NCBI RefSeq assembly: GCF_014201115.1
Contig: NZ_JACHDO010000001.1
Span: forward strand, 1,426,001 to 1,490,000
Source: Nocardiopsis metallicus
Lineage (GTDB): Bacteria; Actinomycetota; Actinomycetes; Streptosporangiales; Streptosporangiaceae
Length of the DNA stretch: 64,000 nt
Direction of reading: 5' to 3'
Shown here piece by piece: positions 20,492 to 31,574 of the stretch; positions within the stretch are counted from its first letter, which is position 1; every line of letters begins with the position of its first letter. The translations under genes and the position numbers were made by a program. The notes under the pieces are model-generated. The model had not been told where the DNA came from. It saw nothing but the letters and a program-made list of their open reading frames with translations, and searched no databases.

Positions 20492-21590
20492 GTGAACCCT
20501 GTGAACACGACCATCGAACCGCACCCCGAGCAGCAGCCAGAACCTGAGAAGAAGCAGAAGAAGCGGGTCAGGCGAGGGTTCGAGCCCCGCCCCGGGCACG
20601 TGGTCCAGGCGTTCGTGTTCGCTCTGGACCCCGGAGCCCGAACCGAGCAGCGGTCGCGCTCGCACTGCGGGGCTGCTCGGGCGGCCTATGCCTGGGCTAT
20701 CTCCCACGTGCTCGCCTCTTGGGAGCAGCGCAGGGCCGAGGCCTCCTACGGCATCGCCGAGGACGACCTCACCCCCCTGGCGTTCGTGGTCGCTGCCGAG
20801 CCCGCGCAAGGCGTTCAACGCGACCAAGCACACCGACCCCAGGTTCGCCGGGTGGTGGGCGGAGCACTCCAAGGTGGCCTACAACACCGGCCTGGCCAGC
20901 GCGGCCGCGGCGTTCGACGCCTACACCCAGTCCAAACGGGGCGAACGCCAGGGCCCCGGATGGGCAAGCCGCGCCGTAAGCCCAAGCATCGCTCCCTGCT
21001 GGCCTGCCGGTTCACCACCGGGGCCATCCGGTTGGAGGGCGAACCTACGCGAGGACGCCCTCCACCAGCTCACCACCAGCCTGGCCCGGGAGTACGGGAC
21101 GGTGGCGGTGGAGGATCTGAACGTGGCCGGGATGGTCAGGAACCGGCGTCTGGCCCAACATATCGCCGACGCCGGTTTCGGCCAGATCCGCCGTCAGCTG
21201 GACTACAAGTCCCGCTGGGGTGGTGGGTGTTTGATCGTGGCGGACCGGTGGTTCGCCAGCAGTAAGACCTGCTCGGGGTGCGGCGCGGTGAAAGCCAAGC
21301 TGGGCCTGCACGTCCGGGGGTTCGACTGCGACGCGTGTCCCCTGGTGTTGGACCGGGACGTCAACGCCGCACGCAACCTCGCCCAACTGGCGCAGAGCAT
21401 GAGTAATACCGGTACCGGAGTGGCCGGAGACCGGGGAGCGCGAGCTCCGAAACCCCGTGGAGCCGACCGTAGGACCCGCACCACCCGCCCTGGTCGTAAG
21501 ACCGGGGTGGGGCGGGCTGGTGGTGCGACACCGCGCAAGCGGAAGGAAGCGGGAGACCGTCCTCGGGGCACCCAACCGAGGTTGTGGTGA
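20492..21590 (+). pseudogene. Degenerate TnpB (IS200/IS605 family), frameshifted and internally deleted
   Basis: TnpB is the RNA-guided nuclease of IS605-type elements. Sequence homologous to TnpB starts at a GTG (20492) behind GGGGAGGGG, with HCGAARAAYAWAISHVLASWEQRRAEASYGIAEDD in one frame. An extra C in the run at 20772-20777 shifts to a second frame (KAFNATKHTDPRFAGWW); about 20945-20965 shifts back; near 21040 a junction removes the middle of the protein, including the RuvC-I aspartate region. The C-terminal part (TVAVEDLNVAGM with the RuvC-II Glu, CSGCG...CDAC zinc finger, DRDVNAARNLAQ with the RuvC-III Asp) is intact. No tnpA is adjacent. Confidence 0.85.
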
Positions 21591-26624: not shown

Positions 26625-26699
26625 GCGCCCTGTCAGGGAAGATGAGACATCGGACTTCTAATCCGACGGTCGCAGGTTCGAATCCTGCCGGGTGCGCCA
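26625..26699 (+). tRNA. tRNA-Arg(TCT)-like sequence with aberrant 5' part
   Basis: The 3' two-thirds are a perfect tRNA: anticodon arm TCGGA-CTTCTAA-TCCGA (anticodon TCT), variable CGGTC, T-arm GCAGG-TTCGAAT-CCTGC, acceptor strand CGGGTGC and GCCA. The 5' part is odd: GCGCCC can form six acceptor pairs (one G-U), then a TGTC/GACA D-stem with an 11-nt loop follows directly, with acceptor position 7 and the linker bases 8-9 missing. A canonical tRNA-Arg(TCT) would start GCACCCG-TA. It is either a very unusual tRNA or a pseudo-tRNA left by recombination at the att site. Confidence 0.55.
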
Positions 26700-26710
26700 C
26701 AAAACCCCAG
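26655..26710 (+). repeat. Left att-like copy (tRNA 3' part)
   Basis: A direct repeat of 29409-29464. It differs at two positions only, both inside the tRNA part: G here against C there in the T-stem, and G here against A there in the acceptor. The tRNA pairing is intact in this copy, which marks it as the one nearer the ancestral tRNA gene. Confidence 0.75.
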
Positions 26711-26724
26711 TTCAGATCGGGTGC

Positions 26725-26758
26725 GTGAGGGCCTCGGGAGAGGCCCTCACGGCGTTTT
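26725..26758 (+). terminator. Terminator after the tRNA-Arg-like sequence
   Basis: A perfect 11-bp stem GTGAGGGCCTC/GAGGCCCTCAC with a 4-nt GGGA loop, followed by GGCGTTTT. This is a good rho-independent terminator placed 25 nt after the tRNA CCA end. Confidence 0.75.
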
Positions 26759-26768
26759 CGGGGCTTGT

Positions 26769-26786
26769 GTGCTCCTCGTGTGCTCC
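26769..26786 (+). repeat. Left arm-type integrase repeats
   Basis: GTGCTCC-TCGT-GTGCTCC, two copies 11 bp apart, followed by CCAG. The same pattern in the same orientation recurs at 29276-29293 beside the other att copy. Confidence 0.55.
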
Positions 26787-27149
26787 CCAGTACAAGGTGA
26801 GTGCCGGTGGGGCGACCTCCCGGAGTGCTTTACCGGGGCCTGACCTCGTCCCGCGAACAGAGTGTGTCCTGCAGCAGCCCACCAGAGCACCATCAGTCCG
26901 CACCACACAAACAGTAGGAGCCGCGCCTCGACTTTCCCTTCTCCCGTTCGCAGCGTTTCCAAGCCACCGGTGAGCGGAGCGGTACACCCGTGCCAAACCA
27001 AGGCAAGCCCTCCAGCACCAGAACGAATCGAGCGCACTCGACCGAGGTGTGGTTTCCGGGTCGGCAGCCGGGCACCCTTACAGGGGATTCGCCCTCAACT
27101 GGCGCTCCTGTCAAGATGGCCGCCGCCGCGACGACGGAGGAGAGCAACC

Positions 27150-28475
27150 GTGGACGGACTGCGAGAGCTGACCCGGGACAAGGACCTGGGAGCGCTCAGG
27201 AACTGGCTCGGCGAGCACGGCACACTCGACATCGCCGAGGGGCTGACCAGGGTCCCCCCGGCTGAACGGGCTATCGCCTTCCGGCTCTTGGCGAAGGACC
27301 GTGCCCTGGCGGTCTTCGAGGCGCTGGAGCCCCTCTACCAGCAGGAGCTGTTGGATGGGCTGCGCGATGCCCAGGTGAGGTCACTCGTCGAGGAGATGGA
27401 GCCGGATGACCGGGTTCGCCTGTTCGACGAGATGCCCGCCACCGTCGTCACGCGGATCCAGGCCGGGCTGAGCCCCAGTGAACGTGAGGCCACCGCGTCA
27501 CTGCTCGGCTACCCGACCGAATCGGCGGGGCGCGTGATGACGCCCTCCTTCGTGAGCGTGCGCTCGTCCATGACCGCCGCTGACGCGTTGTCCAAGGTCC
27601 GTCGCGCCGACGTGGATCCGGCCGTGTTGCACGTCCTGCCGGTCACCGACGACCAGCGTCGTTTGAAGGGCATGGTGGACCTGCGTCATCTGGTCTCCGC
27701 GCCCTCCTCCACCCGTATCGGTGACCTGGTGGGCGGGGAGGTGTACTCGGTGACGGCTGGCACCGACCAGGAAGAAGCGGCACGCCTGATGCGTACCGCC
27801 GATCTGGTGGAGCTGCCGGTGGTCGACGCCGAGGACCGTCTGCTCGGCGTCATCACGGTCGACGACGCGATGCGGGTACTGGATGAGGAGATGACCGAGG
27901 ACCTCGCCCGTACGGGTGGTTCCGAACCTCTGGGGCGCCCCTACCTGGGCTCCAGTGCCTTCCATCTGGCACGCAAGCGGGCCGTGTGGTTGCTGTTGCT
28001 GGGCGTTGCGGCCGTGCTGACGGTCAACGTGCTGGCCGCTTTCGAGGGCACCCTGGAATCGGTGGTGGCGCTGGCCCTGTTCATTCCGTTGCTGATCGAC
28101 ACTGGGGGGAACTCCGGGTCCCAGGCCGCCACGGTCGTCATCCGTGCGATGTCGGTGGGCGAGGTGCGTTTCCGGGACCTGCCCACGGTCGTGTGGCGTG
28201 AGGCCAGGGTTGGGTTCATGCTGGGCCTGATGCTGGCGGTGGTCGCTTTCCCAGCCGTGTGGCTGTTCTTCGATGTGCAGTTCGCCACCATCATCGCTTC
28301 CACGATCGCGGTGATCTGTCTGTGGGCCTCCTTCGTCGGAGGCCTGCTCCCCATGCTGGCCCAGCGGGTGGGGATCGACCCGGCCGTGGTCTCCGCCCCC
28401 CTGATCACCACACTCATCGACGCGACCGGACTGATCCTCTACTTCATGATCGCCATGGCGGTACTGGGTTTGTGA
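27150..28475 (+). CDS. mgtE: Magnesium transporter MgtE
   Basis: A 441-residue MgtE-type Mg2+ channel. An N-terminal superhelical domain (RLLAKDRALAVFEALEPLYQQELLDGL, about 40-130) is followed by two CBS domains (SAGRVMTPSFVSV at about 132 and VYSVTAGTDQEEAARLM at about 200) and a C-terminal membrane domain of five helices containing the family motif LLIDTGGNSGSQAATVVIRAM. The GTG at 27150 is preceded by GGAGGAGA at 7-nt spacing; the frame is open upstream but without support. No M-box is visible upstream; a truncated one lies just downstream (28564). It is the only intact gene inside the att-flanked element. Confidence 0.92.
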   Translation: MDGLRELTRDKDLGALRNWLGEHGTLDIAEGLTRVPPAERAIAFRLLAKDRALAVFEALEPLYQQELLDGLRDAQVRSLVEEMEPDDRVRLFDEMPATVVTRIQAGLSPSEREATASLLGYPTESAGRVMTPSFVSVRSSMTAADALSKVRRADVDPAVLHVLPVTDDQRRLKGMVDLRHLVSAPSSTRIGDLVGGEVYSVTAGTDQEEAARLMRTADLVELPVVDAEDRLLGVITVDDAMRVLDEEMTEDLARTGGSEPLGRPYLGSSAFHLARKRAVWLLLLGVAAVLTVNVLAAFEGTLESVVALALFIPLLIDTGGNSGSQAATVVIRAMSVGEVRFRDLPTVVWREARVGFMLGLMLAVVAFPAVWLFFDVQFATIIASTIAVICLWASFVGGLLPMLAQRVGIDPAVVSAPLITTLIDATGLILYFMIAMAVLGL

Positions 28476-28563
28476 ACGTTCCGTGTCACAGGAGGGCACT
28501 CGATGCCAGTTGGACATCTCCTCGAGGAGCAGCAACCTCTCGACTCGAAGAACACAGCAGGTG

Positions 28564-28636
28564 TCCCGTTAGGTGAGGCTCATGTGTGCGTACGCGTCCG
28601 CTGCCCAAGAAGGTCGAGAGACCCTGATGAGGTAAT
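28564..28636 (+). ncRNA. Truncated M-box (ykoK) magnesium riboswitch
   Basis: GTTAGGTGAGGCTC (28568-28581), then GCTGCCCAAGAAGGTCGAGAGACC (from about 28600) and TGATGAGGTAA follow the order and spacing of the 5' half of the M-box aptamer. The 3' half (the second long helix and the conserved terminal strand) is missing: at about 28637 the sequence runs into an IS5-type transposase remnant. It lies after mgtE on the same strand, so the gene it once controlled has been removed or displaced. Confidence 0.7.
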
Positions 28637-28647
28637 CCCAGCGAGTT

Positions 28648-28845
28648 TCATGTCAGGCGCCCGTGTTCGAAGTGCGTGAGGACGAGGGCGGCTCTGGCGA
28701 TGTCCCCGATCTTGCTGGGGCTGGTGGTGATGTGCTGTAGCAGCCGCCACCGCTGGGTGAGCAGTGCGAACCCGCGCTCGCCCAGACAGTGCATACCCCG
28801 TTGGAGCGTGTTGAGGGTGCGGTCGTCCAGAGCCAGCGGCGGCCC
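28648..28845 (-). pseudogene. C-terminal fragment of an IS5-family DDE transposase
   Basis: The minus strand encodes about 65 residues ending CLGERGFALLTQRWRLLQHITTSPSKIGDIARAALVLTHFEHGRLT-stop, the C-terminal end of an actinomycete DDE_Tnp_4-type (IS5-like) transposase. The catalytic DDE core is absent. The fragment abuts the broken M-box on one side and the truncated ORF on the other, so it marks an old insertion followed by deletion. Confidence 0.7.
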
Positions 28846-28848
28846 GTC

Positions 28849-29140
28849 GGCCGGCGATCGCGCCCTGCTCCGCCATCCAGTCCCAACAGGTCGGCCCCAG
28901 ACGCGCCATCCACGCCAGGGCCGCTCGGGCACGTCGTTCCCGCGCGCGAGGGGTTCGGCCGGTCGCGGCACGCAGCAGGGGGAAGGTGGTGTTGTCCCAG
29001 GCGTCGCAGAGGGCTCTGATGGTTTCCCGGTCGAAGGTGCGTGCGTCGCGGGCGGCGTCGGCGATCTGGTGCAGGGAGCGGCCCAGCAGGGCGCCCAACG
29101 CGGCCAAGGACGGTTCGGCGGGGTCAGGGGGTGCGCTCAT
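28849..29140 (-). pseudogene. Truncated hypothetical protein
   Basis: About 97 residues from the ATG at 29140 (MSAPPDPAEPSLAALGALLGRSLHQIADAARDARTFDRETI...) read as a plausible alpha-helical, alanine/arginine-rich protein. Beyond about 28850 the frame runs on into sequence that belongs, in another frame, to the IS5-type transposase fragment. The natural C-terminus is therefore lost. I do not recognise the family. Confidence 0.45.
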
Positions 29141-29275
29141 AACCGAGAACCCTGGCACAAGACCACGGTGGGTACATCAGTCGGTGGTACAGGAAGGAAC
29201 CACGCTCTCGCGCACCAGCGGGAACAATTCACGGGTACCTTGCGAGGTGTCATCGGACGCCGTCAACACCCGTGT

Positions 29276-29293
29276 GTGCTCCGTTGGTGCTCC
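29276..29293 (+). repeat. Right arm-type integrase repeats
   Basis: GTGCTCC-GTTG-GTGCTCC, 11 bp apart, followed by GCAG; the same unit, spacing and orientation as the left pair at 26769-26786. The rest of 29141-29408 contains no gene that I can support. Confidence 0.55.
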
Positions 29294-29408
29294 GCAGTTT
29301 TGCACCGGGACGTCACCGGGCGGCACGACGTGGCACAGGGCGGCATCCTGATTCGGATGGTGCGGGACACAACGGCACGAAGTGACACGTGGCGGAACCC
29401 GGGCGCCG

Positions 29409-29464
29409 CTTCTAATCCGACGGTCGCAGCTTCGAATCCTGCCGAGTGCGCCACAAAACCCCAG
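29409..29464 (+). repeat. Right att-like copy (tRNA 3' part)
   Basis: The second copy of the 56-bp repeat. A G-to-C change breaks one T-stem pair, and there is no acceptor or D-arm sequence upstream, so this is a tRNA fragment rather than a gene. Downstream, 29465-29789 (325 bases before treZ) shows no gene or clear motif. Confidence 0.75.
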
Positions 29465-29789
29465 GCCACAGCCTTAGCAGATCAGGGGCCAGCAAGGTCG
29501 CCCTGCCGGTAAGTCCAGGGCGGGGCCGAAGTGGGACCAGGTCTTCCACCCCTGCCTCGTCCATACCCGAGCCTGCAGGCTCTGTCGGCACCCCGCGGCG
29601 TCAGCCACGAAGACCAGCTAGTCGTCTCCTGCGCGGTCAGCAACGAGGCACCACGCCGACTGGCTACCTGCTGCTCCAAGTTCAGCGACGGCCCGCTCTC
29701 TTGAGTGACGGGAGGCGATCCCGCGGGCCGCTGAAGGGGTGCGGTGACGCAAGGTTCGGTCCCGGTGCACCCGGGGTAGGCCACCCCGC

Positions 29790-31574
29790 GTGAACGAATT
29801 GGCGATGGAATCGACCCTGTCCAGCTCACCCGGCCGGGGGGTCCGCGGGGACTTCTCCGTGTGGGCTCCCCGGGCCCGCCGCGTACGGGTCCGCGTCGAC
29901 GGGACCGACCACCCCATGGAACGCGCCCCCGACGGCTGGTGGCACGCCCGGGTGGCGGGCGCCGGACCGGGCTCGGACTACGCCTACCTCCTCGACGAGG
30001 ATCCCCAGCCCCTGCCCGACCCGCGCTCCCTGCACCAACCCGAGGGGGTGCACGCACCCAGCCGGGTGTACGACCACGCCGCCCACGCCTGGGCGGACGG
30101 CGACTGGACCGGGCGCCCGCTCGCCGGAGGCGTGGTCTACGAACTCCACGTCGGTACCTTCACCCCCGAGGGCACCCTGGACTCCGCCGTCGACCGCCTC
30201 GACCACCTGGTCGACCTCGGTGTCACCCACGTGGAGCTGATGCCGCTCAACGCCTTCGACGGCACCCACGGCTGGGGTTACGACGGCGTCCTGTGGGCCG
30301 CAGTCCACGAACCCTACGGCGGCCCCGACGCGCTCAAGGTGTTCGTCGACGCCTGCCACCGCCGGGGCCTCGCGGTCCTGCTGGACGTGGTCTACAACCA
30401 CCTCGGCCCCTCCGGCGCCTACCTGCCGCGCTTCGGTCCCTACTTCTCCGGAGAGAACGCCTGGGGGCCCTCGCTCAACCTGGACGGCCCCGATTCCGAC
30501 CCCGTCCGGCGACTGGTCGTCGACGGCGCCCTGGACTGGCTGCGCCACTACCACCTGGACGGACTCCGCCTGGACGCGGTGCACGCCCTGCGCGACGACC
30601 GGGCCGCGCCGATCCTCGCCGAGCTCTCCGCCGACGTCGACGCCCTGTCCGCCGGCCTGGGCCGCCCGCTCGCCCTGGTCGCGGAGTCCGACCGCAACGA
30701 CCCGCGCACCGTCCTGCCCCGGGAGGCGGGCGGGCTCGGGATGAGCGCACAGTGGTCCGACGACCTCCACCACGCCCTGCACGTCGCCCTCACCGGCGAG
30801 AAACACGGCTACTACGCCGACTTCGACGGCCCCCAGGTGCTCGCCGAGACCCTGCGGCGCGTCTTCTGGCACGAGGGCACGTTCTCCACCTTCCGCGGCA
30901 GGAGGCACGGGGCCCGGGTGGACACCGCACTGATCCCGGGCAGCCGCTTCCTCGGCTACCTCAGCACCCACGACCAGATCGGCAACCGGGCCCGCGGCGA
31001 CCGCATGGGCGAGCACCTCTCACCCGGCCTGCTCACCTGCGGCGCCGCCCTCGTCCTGTGCTCGCCCTACACCCCGATGATCTTCATGGGGGAGGAGTGG
31101 GGGGCCACCACCCCCTGGCCGTTCTTCGCCTCGTTCACCGACCCCGAACTCGTCGAGGGGGTGCGCCGGGGCCGCCGCCGCGAGTTCGCCGCCCTGGGCT
31201 GGGCCGAGGAGGACATCCCCGACCCCATGGACCCGGCCACCCGCGACAGCGCGGTCCTGGACTGGTCCGAGCCCGAGCACGAGTCCCGAAAACCGGTCCT
31301 GGACACCTACCGCGCCCTGATCGCCCTGCGCCGGGCCGAACCCGAACTCTGCGACCCGCGCCTGGACCGGTTCGCCGTCAGCTCCAGCCAGGACGGCCGC
31401 ACGCTGGTGCTGACCCGCGGTTCGCTGCGCCTGGTCTGCAACCTCGGCCTCGAAGAGACTCGGACGGAACTGGAGGCGGCACCCCGGGAGCTCCTGCTCG
31501 CCAGCGGCGTCCCGAGAGTGGACGGCACCGCGGTCAGCGTCGCGGGGGAGTCCTTCGCGGTGCTGCGGGTGTGA
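29790..31574 (+). CDS. treZ: Malto-oligosyltrehalose trehalohydrolase
   Basis: A 594-residue GH13 enzyme that releases trehalose from maltooligosyltrehalose, the second step after TreY. An N-terminal beta-sandwich (FSVWAPRARRVRVRV) precedes the barrel: VVYELHVGTFTPEGTLDSAVDRL, GWGYDGVLWAAVHEPYGG, LLDVVYNHLGPSG, HLDGLRLDAVHALRDD with the nucleophile Asp, LALVAESDRND with the catalytic Glu, and YLSTHDQIGNRARGDR. Length and order fit TreZ. The start is a GTG at 29790 (MNELAMESTL); an ATG 15 nt further on is possible. Its usual neighbour treY is 4.1 kb away across the att element. Confidence 0.95.
   Translation: MNELAMESTLSSSPGRGVRGDFSVWAPRARRVRVRVDGTDHPMERAPDGWWHARVAGAGPGSDYAYLLDEDPQPLPDPRSLHQPEGVHAPSRVYDHAAHAWADGDWTGRPLAGGVVYELHVGTFTPEGTLDSAVDRLDHLVDLGVTHVELMPLNAFDGTHGWGYDGVLWAAVHEPYGGPDALKVFVDACHRRGLAVLLDVVYNHLGPSGAYLPRFGPYFSGENAWGPSLNLDGPDSDPVRRLVVDGALDWLRHYHLDGLRLDAVHALRDDRAAPILAELSADVDALSAGLGRPLALVAESDRNDPRTVLPREAGGLGMSAQWSDDLHHALHVALTGEKHGYYADFDGPQVLAETLRRVFWHEGTFSTFRGRRHGARVDTALIPGSRFLGYLSTHDQIGNRARGDRMGEHLSPGLLTCGAALVLCSPYTPMIFMGEEWGATTPWPFFASFTDPELVEGVRRGRRREFAALGWAEEDIPDPMDPATRDSAVLDWSEPEHESRKPVLDTYRALIALRRAEPELCDPRLDRFAVSSSQDGRTLVLTRGSLRLVCNLGLEETRTELEAAPRELLLASGVPRVDGTAVSVAGESFAVLRV

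Follow-up and report, generated by a model that had tools for sequence, protein, structure and literature searches.

What is an mgtE gene for Mg2+ transport doing between rlmA and treZ in Nocardiopsis metallicus, framed by two copies of the 3' part of a tRNA-Arg(TCT) gene? The stretch that raises this question, hereafter the window, is 64 kb long (G000:C1:1426001-1490000, where G000 is the 7.78-Mb N. metallicus genome and C1 its contig), and the segment at issue occupies 26655-29464 within it. The best answer, to which I give a probability of roughly 0.78 judging from sequence, is that this segment is an integrase-less cassette flanked by attachment (att) sites, of the type called cis-mobilizable elements (CIMEs), that it belongs to an integration family of tRNA-Arg(TCT), and that it is predicted to be mobilisable in trans. 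Comparisons within the genus are based on 40 Nocardiopsis genomes, N. metallicus included; G001, G005, G008, G010, G013, G030, G034 and G040 are other genomes of this sample, G010 being the closest relative as judged from the identity of rlmA and of treZ, and L-numbers are extracted loci. Unprefixed positions of five digits refer to the window and those of seven digits to the contig.

Probable attachment sites of the mgtE cassette and their counterparts in the tRNA-Arg(TCT) array

As the original prediction held, the segment begins and ends with 56-bp direct repeats (26655-26710 and 29409-29464, forward strand, as are their arms), which are 96% identical with differences at 2/56 positions, and inward of each stands a pair of GTGCTCC repeats. 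These pairs, at 26769-26786 and 29276-29293, are the only occurrences of GTGCTCC-N4-GTGCTCC in the window, where the 22 single GTGCTCC on both strands lead one to expect about 0.004 pairs by chance. All four repeats are exact and their spacing is preserved. The arrangement is that of a left att core (attL, B-O-P') with a P' arm-type pair and, 2.75 kb away, a P arm-type pair ahead of a right core, the attR of the mgtE element, which doubles as the left core of the next module.

The same anatomy recurs on the same contig, 2.3 Mb from the window. The left core matches four sites of a tRNA-Arg array at 90-93% over 126 bp, and core and P' arm occur together at 3765455, inside the genuine tRNA-Arg gene, and at 3787322, 3877596 and 3882970; a fifth array core, at 3874995, has no GTGCTCC arms of its own. 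The P' pair lies 114 bp from the core start in the window and in all four P'-armed array copies, and the P pair stands 133 bp before the core in the window compared with 135, 135 and 119 bp in three array copies. Joined to each other, the window ends align through P, core and P' with seven junctions from five genomes. Two of these deviate: in G030 the P' half is strongly altered, and at 3882970 the P side is 16 bp shorter and the second P' repeat changed. By this measure the repeats and arms in the window look like true attL and attR ends.

Two type I tyrosine integrases (PF00589, 499 aa each, 95% identical) are encoded in the array, at 3767430-3768929 and 3810270-3811769, and the array element 3787322-3874995 encodes proteins that match conjugation ATPases in Pfam (TrwB_AAD_bind, P-loop_TraG). 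The counter-case that the original prediction had set itself, a dispersed repeat family unrelated to integrases, did not occur among the sequences searched: the repeats are dispersed, but beside integrases. Inside the window, a profile search of the genome found no tyrosine integrase (PF00589), and there are no transfer genes among the open reading frames (ORFs) of the element, as judged from the ORFs only and with no search of serine recombinase models; the best-scoring ORFs are mgtE and a transposase remnant. So far as tyrosine integrases were searched, the element lacks the integrase of its own that an autonomous integrative and conjugative element (ICE), actinomycete ICE (AICE) or integrative and mobilizable element (IME) would have. 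It has instead the make-up of a CIME, namely attL and attR of an ICE/IME family as flanks, neither integrase nor transfer genes between them, and integrase-bearing relatives with the same att in the same genome, which supports the CIME-like element first proposed. As regards a composite transposon, which has two insertion sequence (IS) copies as flanks, the flanks here are att modules and a single degenerate transposase lies inside (no search was aimed at flanking IS).

How might such a cassette have arrived, and how might it leave? The home of the integration family would be the 3' end of tRNA-Arg(TCT) in Nocardiopsis. An integrase-encoding element probably brought about, or accompanied, the insertion of the cassette between rlmA and treZ, and the cassette would have lost, or never possessed, an integrase of its own. 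Any current movement would occur in trans, by the integrases of the array 2.3 Mb away, and would release a 2.75-kb circle with a rebuilt attP. A transport gene, whose benefit may be Mg2+ transport itself, would then sit between att ends open to recognition by ICE integrases of the same host. With its att geometry, two near-identical candidate helper integrases and a relative carrying other cargo at this same site away from home, the system makes trans-mobilisation of integrase-less cassettes directly testable in an actinomycete.

An exchange that maps to a core is seen within the array when N. metallicus is compared with G010. The two genomes are identical over 2000 bp to the left of the core at 3877596 in the former and 5960854 in the latter, up to core offset 44, and to the right of core 5960854 G010 is identical over 400 bp to the tRNA-proximal copy of N. 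metallicus at 3765455 (96% over 2190 bp). Because identity with one copy ends at offset 44 and the other copy is matched rightward, the switch point lies inside the core, as expected of integrase-mediated exchange, although homologous recombination in the core could also produce it. The simpler idea that G010 merely lacks the 5.4-kb cassette 3877596-3882970 was rejected, as a different 15.8-kb segment stands behind the identical left half. Tandem arrays of more than 100 kb are present at tRNA-Arg(TCT) in both genomes (G000:C1:3765455-3882970 and G010:C1:5846885-5976663), and a 5-kb stretch found in the two is 99.7% identical, compared with protein identities of 89% for the RlmA-like protein and 91% for TreZ.

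Other contents of the array are less readily named. For five ORFs of the first array element Pfam gave no match, and the 328-aa protein of segment 3874995-3877596 gave neither a PADLOC nor a Pfam match. Inside the large array element lie two inverted copies of a 1309-bp sequence (3827110-3828418 and 3849496-3850804), 100% identical and probably recent IS insertions. To the right of the last att copy, 3886772-3896534 (L015) holds a cluster resembling kdp potassium-transport genes, named by eye, and synteny with G010 resumes at 3910944.

Cargo and insertion site

The mgtE gene (27150-28475, forward strand, 441 aa) is intact, as had been claimed: it encodes MgtE_N, two CBS and MgtE domains in Pfam and matches TIGR00400 above cut-off. 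Its identity to genus copies is 52% at best (51% over the full length), for which reason it was rejected as a native gene of the genus, and the genome holds an additional, genus-type mgtE at 3707708. With 52% as the best match in the genus, no relative was found that carries this mgtE at the locus without the repeats, a case that the original prediction had named against itself. A recent donor was likewise rejected: the best match among 394 genomes of the class is 53% identical, and 12/12 plasmid records (E up to 1e-60) fall below 60%.

Downstream of mgtE, on the same strand, lies a remnant of an M-box, the Mg2+ riboswitch, at 28558-28640, its 3' part eroded and its 3' limit read from the alignment. 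When 251 bases were searched, RF00380 matched 28558-28720 at 25.3 bits (E 9e-4), under the gathering score of 44; when 3401 bases were searched, the score was 21.9 bits (E 0.097). Control of mgtE by this M-box in its present place was rejected from its downstream position. Among the genus mgtE loci, the 11 scanned of 30 fetched (leaving out the genome's own genus-type copy) gave no Rfam match to an M-box at gathering score, and at one of five loci of distant mgtE homologues a strong M-box precedes mgtE by about 420 bp, in the same orientation. On the reverse strand follows a DDE_Tnp_4-like transposase remnant (28648-28971; below cut-off for PF13359, E 0.0017). Both this remnant and the truncation of the M-box are signs of decay inside the element. 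I infer an earlier cassette with an M-box-led Mg2+ gene, into which an IS later cut.

Where does the cassette sit? The original prediction placed it in a tRNA-Arg gene, and this did not hold. ARAGORN does call a tRNA-Arg(TCT) at 26625-26699 (forward strand), but Rfam gives it only 33.5 bits, over model positions 10-63, compared with 77.7 bits at full length for the genuine gene at G000:C1:3765425-3765500, and tRNA-Arg was found at none of the 28 treZ loci of relatives that were scanned. The call is a chimera, probably not functional as a tRNA, in which an att piece, the 3' part of tRNA-Arg, is fused to the DNA at the end of the rlmA-like gene. The element is therefore not integrated in a functional tRNA-Arg gene, as a home-site tRNA-Arg island would be.

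The separation of treY from treZ needs a similar correction. Both gene identities stand (TIGR02401 and TIGR02402, above cut-off), and the treZ ORF is intact. The pathway was not newly split by the element, however, because rlmA already separates the two genes in relatives, the order treY, rlmA, treZ being found in 23/30 loci examined; the ORF called rlmA matches 23S rRNA G748/G745 methyltransferase models, each below its cut-off. The element lengthens the rlmA-treZ interval by about 3.2 kb. Its proposed boundary at 29464 has to be moved, as a second att module follows and locus-foreign DNA continues to about 29743; by comparison with relatives, ancestral treZ upstream DNA resumes at 29744-29789 (forward strand), directly before the treZ start at 29790. 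A promoter-like pair, TTCGGT-16-TAGGCC, lies within this DNA at 29755-29782, just upstream of the treZ start, and appears by eye to be largely conserved in aligned relatives. The insertion may have left treZ with its own promoter.

The gene pair rlmA and treZ is on one contig in 39/40 genus genomes, with a gap of at most 560 bp in 29 and more than 800 bp in ten. Among the ten, N. metallicus and G013 have att copies at the site, and in three more (G010, G001 and G030) none was found with up to 12 mismatches allowed. A blastn comparison of the window's left junction, core included, with 30 relative loci matched the rlmA end and left the core unmatched, L017 being a locus that stops short of the rlmA side. 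N. ganjiahuensis, from which this locus comes (G040, whose rlmA match is identical to that of G013), has the left junction of the window (the rlmA end followed by CATCGGA, the core and the P' arm, at 94% over 146 bp); behind it come 17.7 kb of different cargo, and a degenerate att end with arms lies directly upstream of treZ.

Integrase-less segments and the type III module across Nocardiopsis

Is the mgtE cassette an isolated case? Among the matches listed, the att module was found in 40/40 genus genomes, and ARAGORN places a tRNA-Arg(TCT) at the att in 18 of 30 att loci taken from these matches, the window chimera counted. The integrase has matches (E up to 1e-40) in 35/40 genomes, some being fragments only or belonging to type II (about 43% identical to type I and directly adjoining the att cores). 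Plasmid records yielded only integrase matches under 60% (152 records). When segments closed from att to att were collected, 13 of 31 had no match to type I or type II integrases, the only families counted outside the N. metallicus genome, nine had fragments only and nine a full match, in a sample partly biased in that several stretches were picked for looking short and one segment (2601 bp in each) was counted in both G000 and G010. In four genomes picked for few contigs (G000, G030, G008 and G034), the 15 segments divide into five with no match, three with fragments and seven with a full integrase match. Some caution is due with the class without a match, as G010 5960854-5976663 was scored there, yet its left end resembles, at 96%, a stretch extending as far as the end of an integrase gene, and nine mismatches occur in its right core. 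Besides mgtE, segments that have no full integrase carry, among other cargo, a type I restriction pair (G030) and two protein kinases (G005). Integrase-less att-bounded segments thus appear common in the genus, and the distribution would reveal a genus-wide accretion system at tRNA-Arg(TCT).

The least expected part of this system is a dedicated end of another kind, which I call type III. In the window it consists of the right core and about 310 bp beyond it (29409-29723, forward strand), and it is 89% identical to G005:C24:8386 and 88% to G010:C1:7037612; further copies are at G000:C1:3874995, G000:C1:1202323 and G005:C24:12657. The module recurs in at least six genomes, N. metallicus among them; ten copies from six genomes, that of the window included, align at 75-89% identity over at least 250 bp, the first 60 bp or so past the core occurring in two versions, and two extra copies are only 68-69% identical. 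That type III is a plain chromosomal flank of the tRNA gene was rejected, since it occurs twice within one G005 array and mid-array in N. metallicus. A full-length integrase was found in none of eight closed segments led by type III (one segment being counted twice, in G000 and in G010), and two contain matches of at most 50 aa. In the window, then, the mgtE cassette is followed in tandem by the left end of a second element, the rest of which is lost.

Alternative explanations and known counterparts

Several observations weigh against an integrase-less cassette mobilisable in trans. The right core at 29409 departs from the left at 2/56 positions, and for this reason the attR of the mgtE element may be weak. 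A second copy of the window mgtE was not found in the genus search, so a direct sign of the cassette moving as a unit is missing. In the N. ganjiahuensis core, one of the first seven bases, where crossover presumably takes place, is changed. Finally, the empty site that the original prediction hoped for in relatives was not found in the closest of them: the rlmA-treZ site of G010 has neither att nor this cargo, and a clean empty site had to be rejected there, the place being occupied by 4.9 kb of unrelated genes. This tells to some degree against a simple inherited insertion.

Could the segment then be dead? On such an account an autonomous element at rlmA-treZ lost nearly everything through an IS-linked deletion, and its arms are immobile relics. 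I would put this at somewhat under an even chance, and its origin overlaps that of the cassette. It would explain the transposase remnant and truncated M-box, the neighbouring second att module without its element, and the degenerate att end just ahead of treZ in N. ganjiahuensis, but all four GTGCTCC repeats are exact with their spacing retained and mgtE is intact. It is unlikely that the rlmA-treZ site received a block of the tRNA-Arg array, att copies included, through homologous recombination or transposition and with no site-specific integration. The site is indeed not a tRNA gene, no core-like ancestral attB was found in the relatives' loci, and a type III copy also lies elsewhere, at G000:C1:1202323; however, N. 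ganjiahuensis has other cargo behind the identical left junction, as would be expected if one att site were used repeatedly, and in the 160-kb array stretch only att modules match the window element, its cargo being unmatched. The notion of an ordinary tRNA-Arg gene, a chance or unrelated dispersed repeat and a native mgtE has the ARAGORN call in its favour and is barely credible against the Rfam scores, the lack of tRNA-Arg at relatives' loci, the low identity to genus mgtE and the chance expectation for the arm pairs. Taking the integrase-less cassette further, one may imagine a genus-wide, integron-like system in which small cassettes, devoid of integrases, have conserved ends (GTGCTCC arms in type I, the 310-bp module in type III) and are taken up, swapped and parked at tRNA-Arg and secondary sites by integrases that resident ICEs provide in trans, with the mgtE segment as one such cassette; this is a speculative extension, which I consider rather improbable.

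The mgtE cassette is not a novel kind of element but adds another case to kinds already known: CIMEs, AICEs in tandem at tRNA-Arg, and ssrA islands that have no integrase. CIMEs, as described for the accretion of streptococcal ICEs (PMC5704250), keep attL and attR, have no integration or transfer genes and stand in tandem with other elements, all of which is true of the window cassette. Unlike them, the latter is actinobacterial, has GTGCTCC arms and mgtE as cargo, lies off its home tRNA site, 2.3 Mb from its supposed helpers, and its movement is a prediction from sequence. The Dehalococcoides ssrA islands are similarly described (PMC3146451) as tandem, with repeats of the 3' end of an RNA gene at their borders, and with 15 that have no integration module suggested to be CIMEs; there a serine recombinase and ssrA are involved, whereas Nocardiopsis has a tyrosine integrase and tRNA-Arg, with one cassette off-site. 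Among actinobacterial AICEs at tRNA-Arg, PMC3218068 places Sav3708 and Sav3728 in tandem and gives Fean6303 two attL copies and excision by alternative att pairs. The tRNA-Arg att sites and the tandem elements or additional attL copies are shared features, but Sav3708 and Sav3728 encode integrases and AICEs are conjugative, and the window cassette has neither property. A literature search yielded no integrative-conjugative case at tRNA-Arg in Nocardiopsis, and wider searches of titles and abstract openings gave no Nocardiopsis or mgtE case among the matches listed.

Elsewhere in the window, overlapping ORFs at 20492-21590 resemble, by eye and from their translations, a frameshifted TnpB-type protein.

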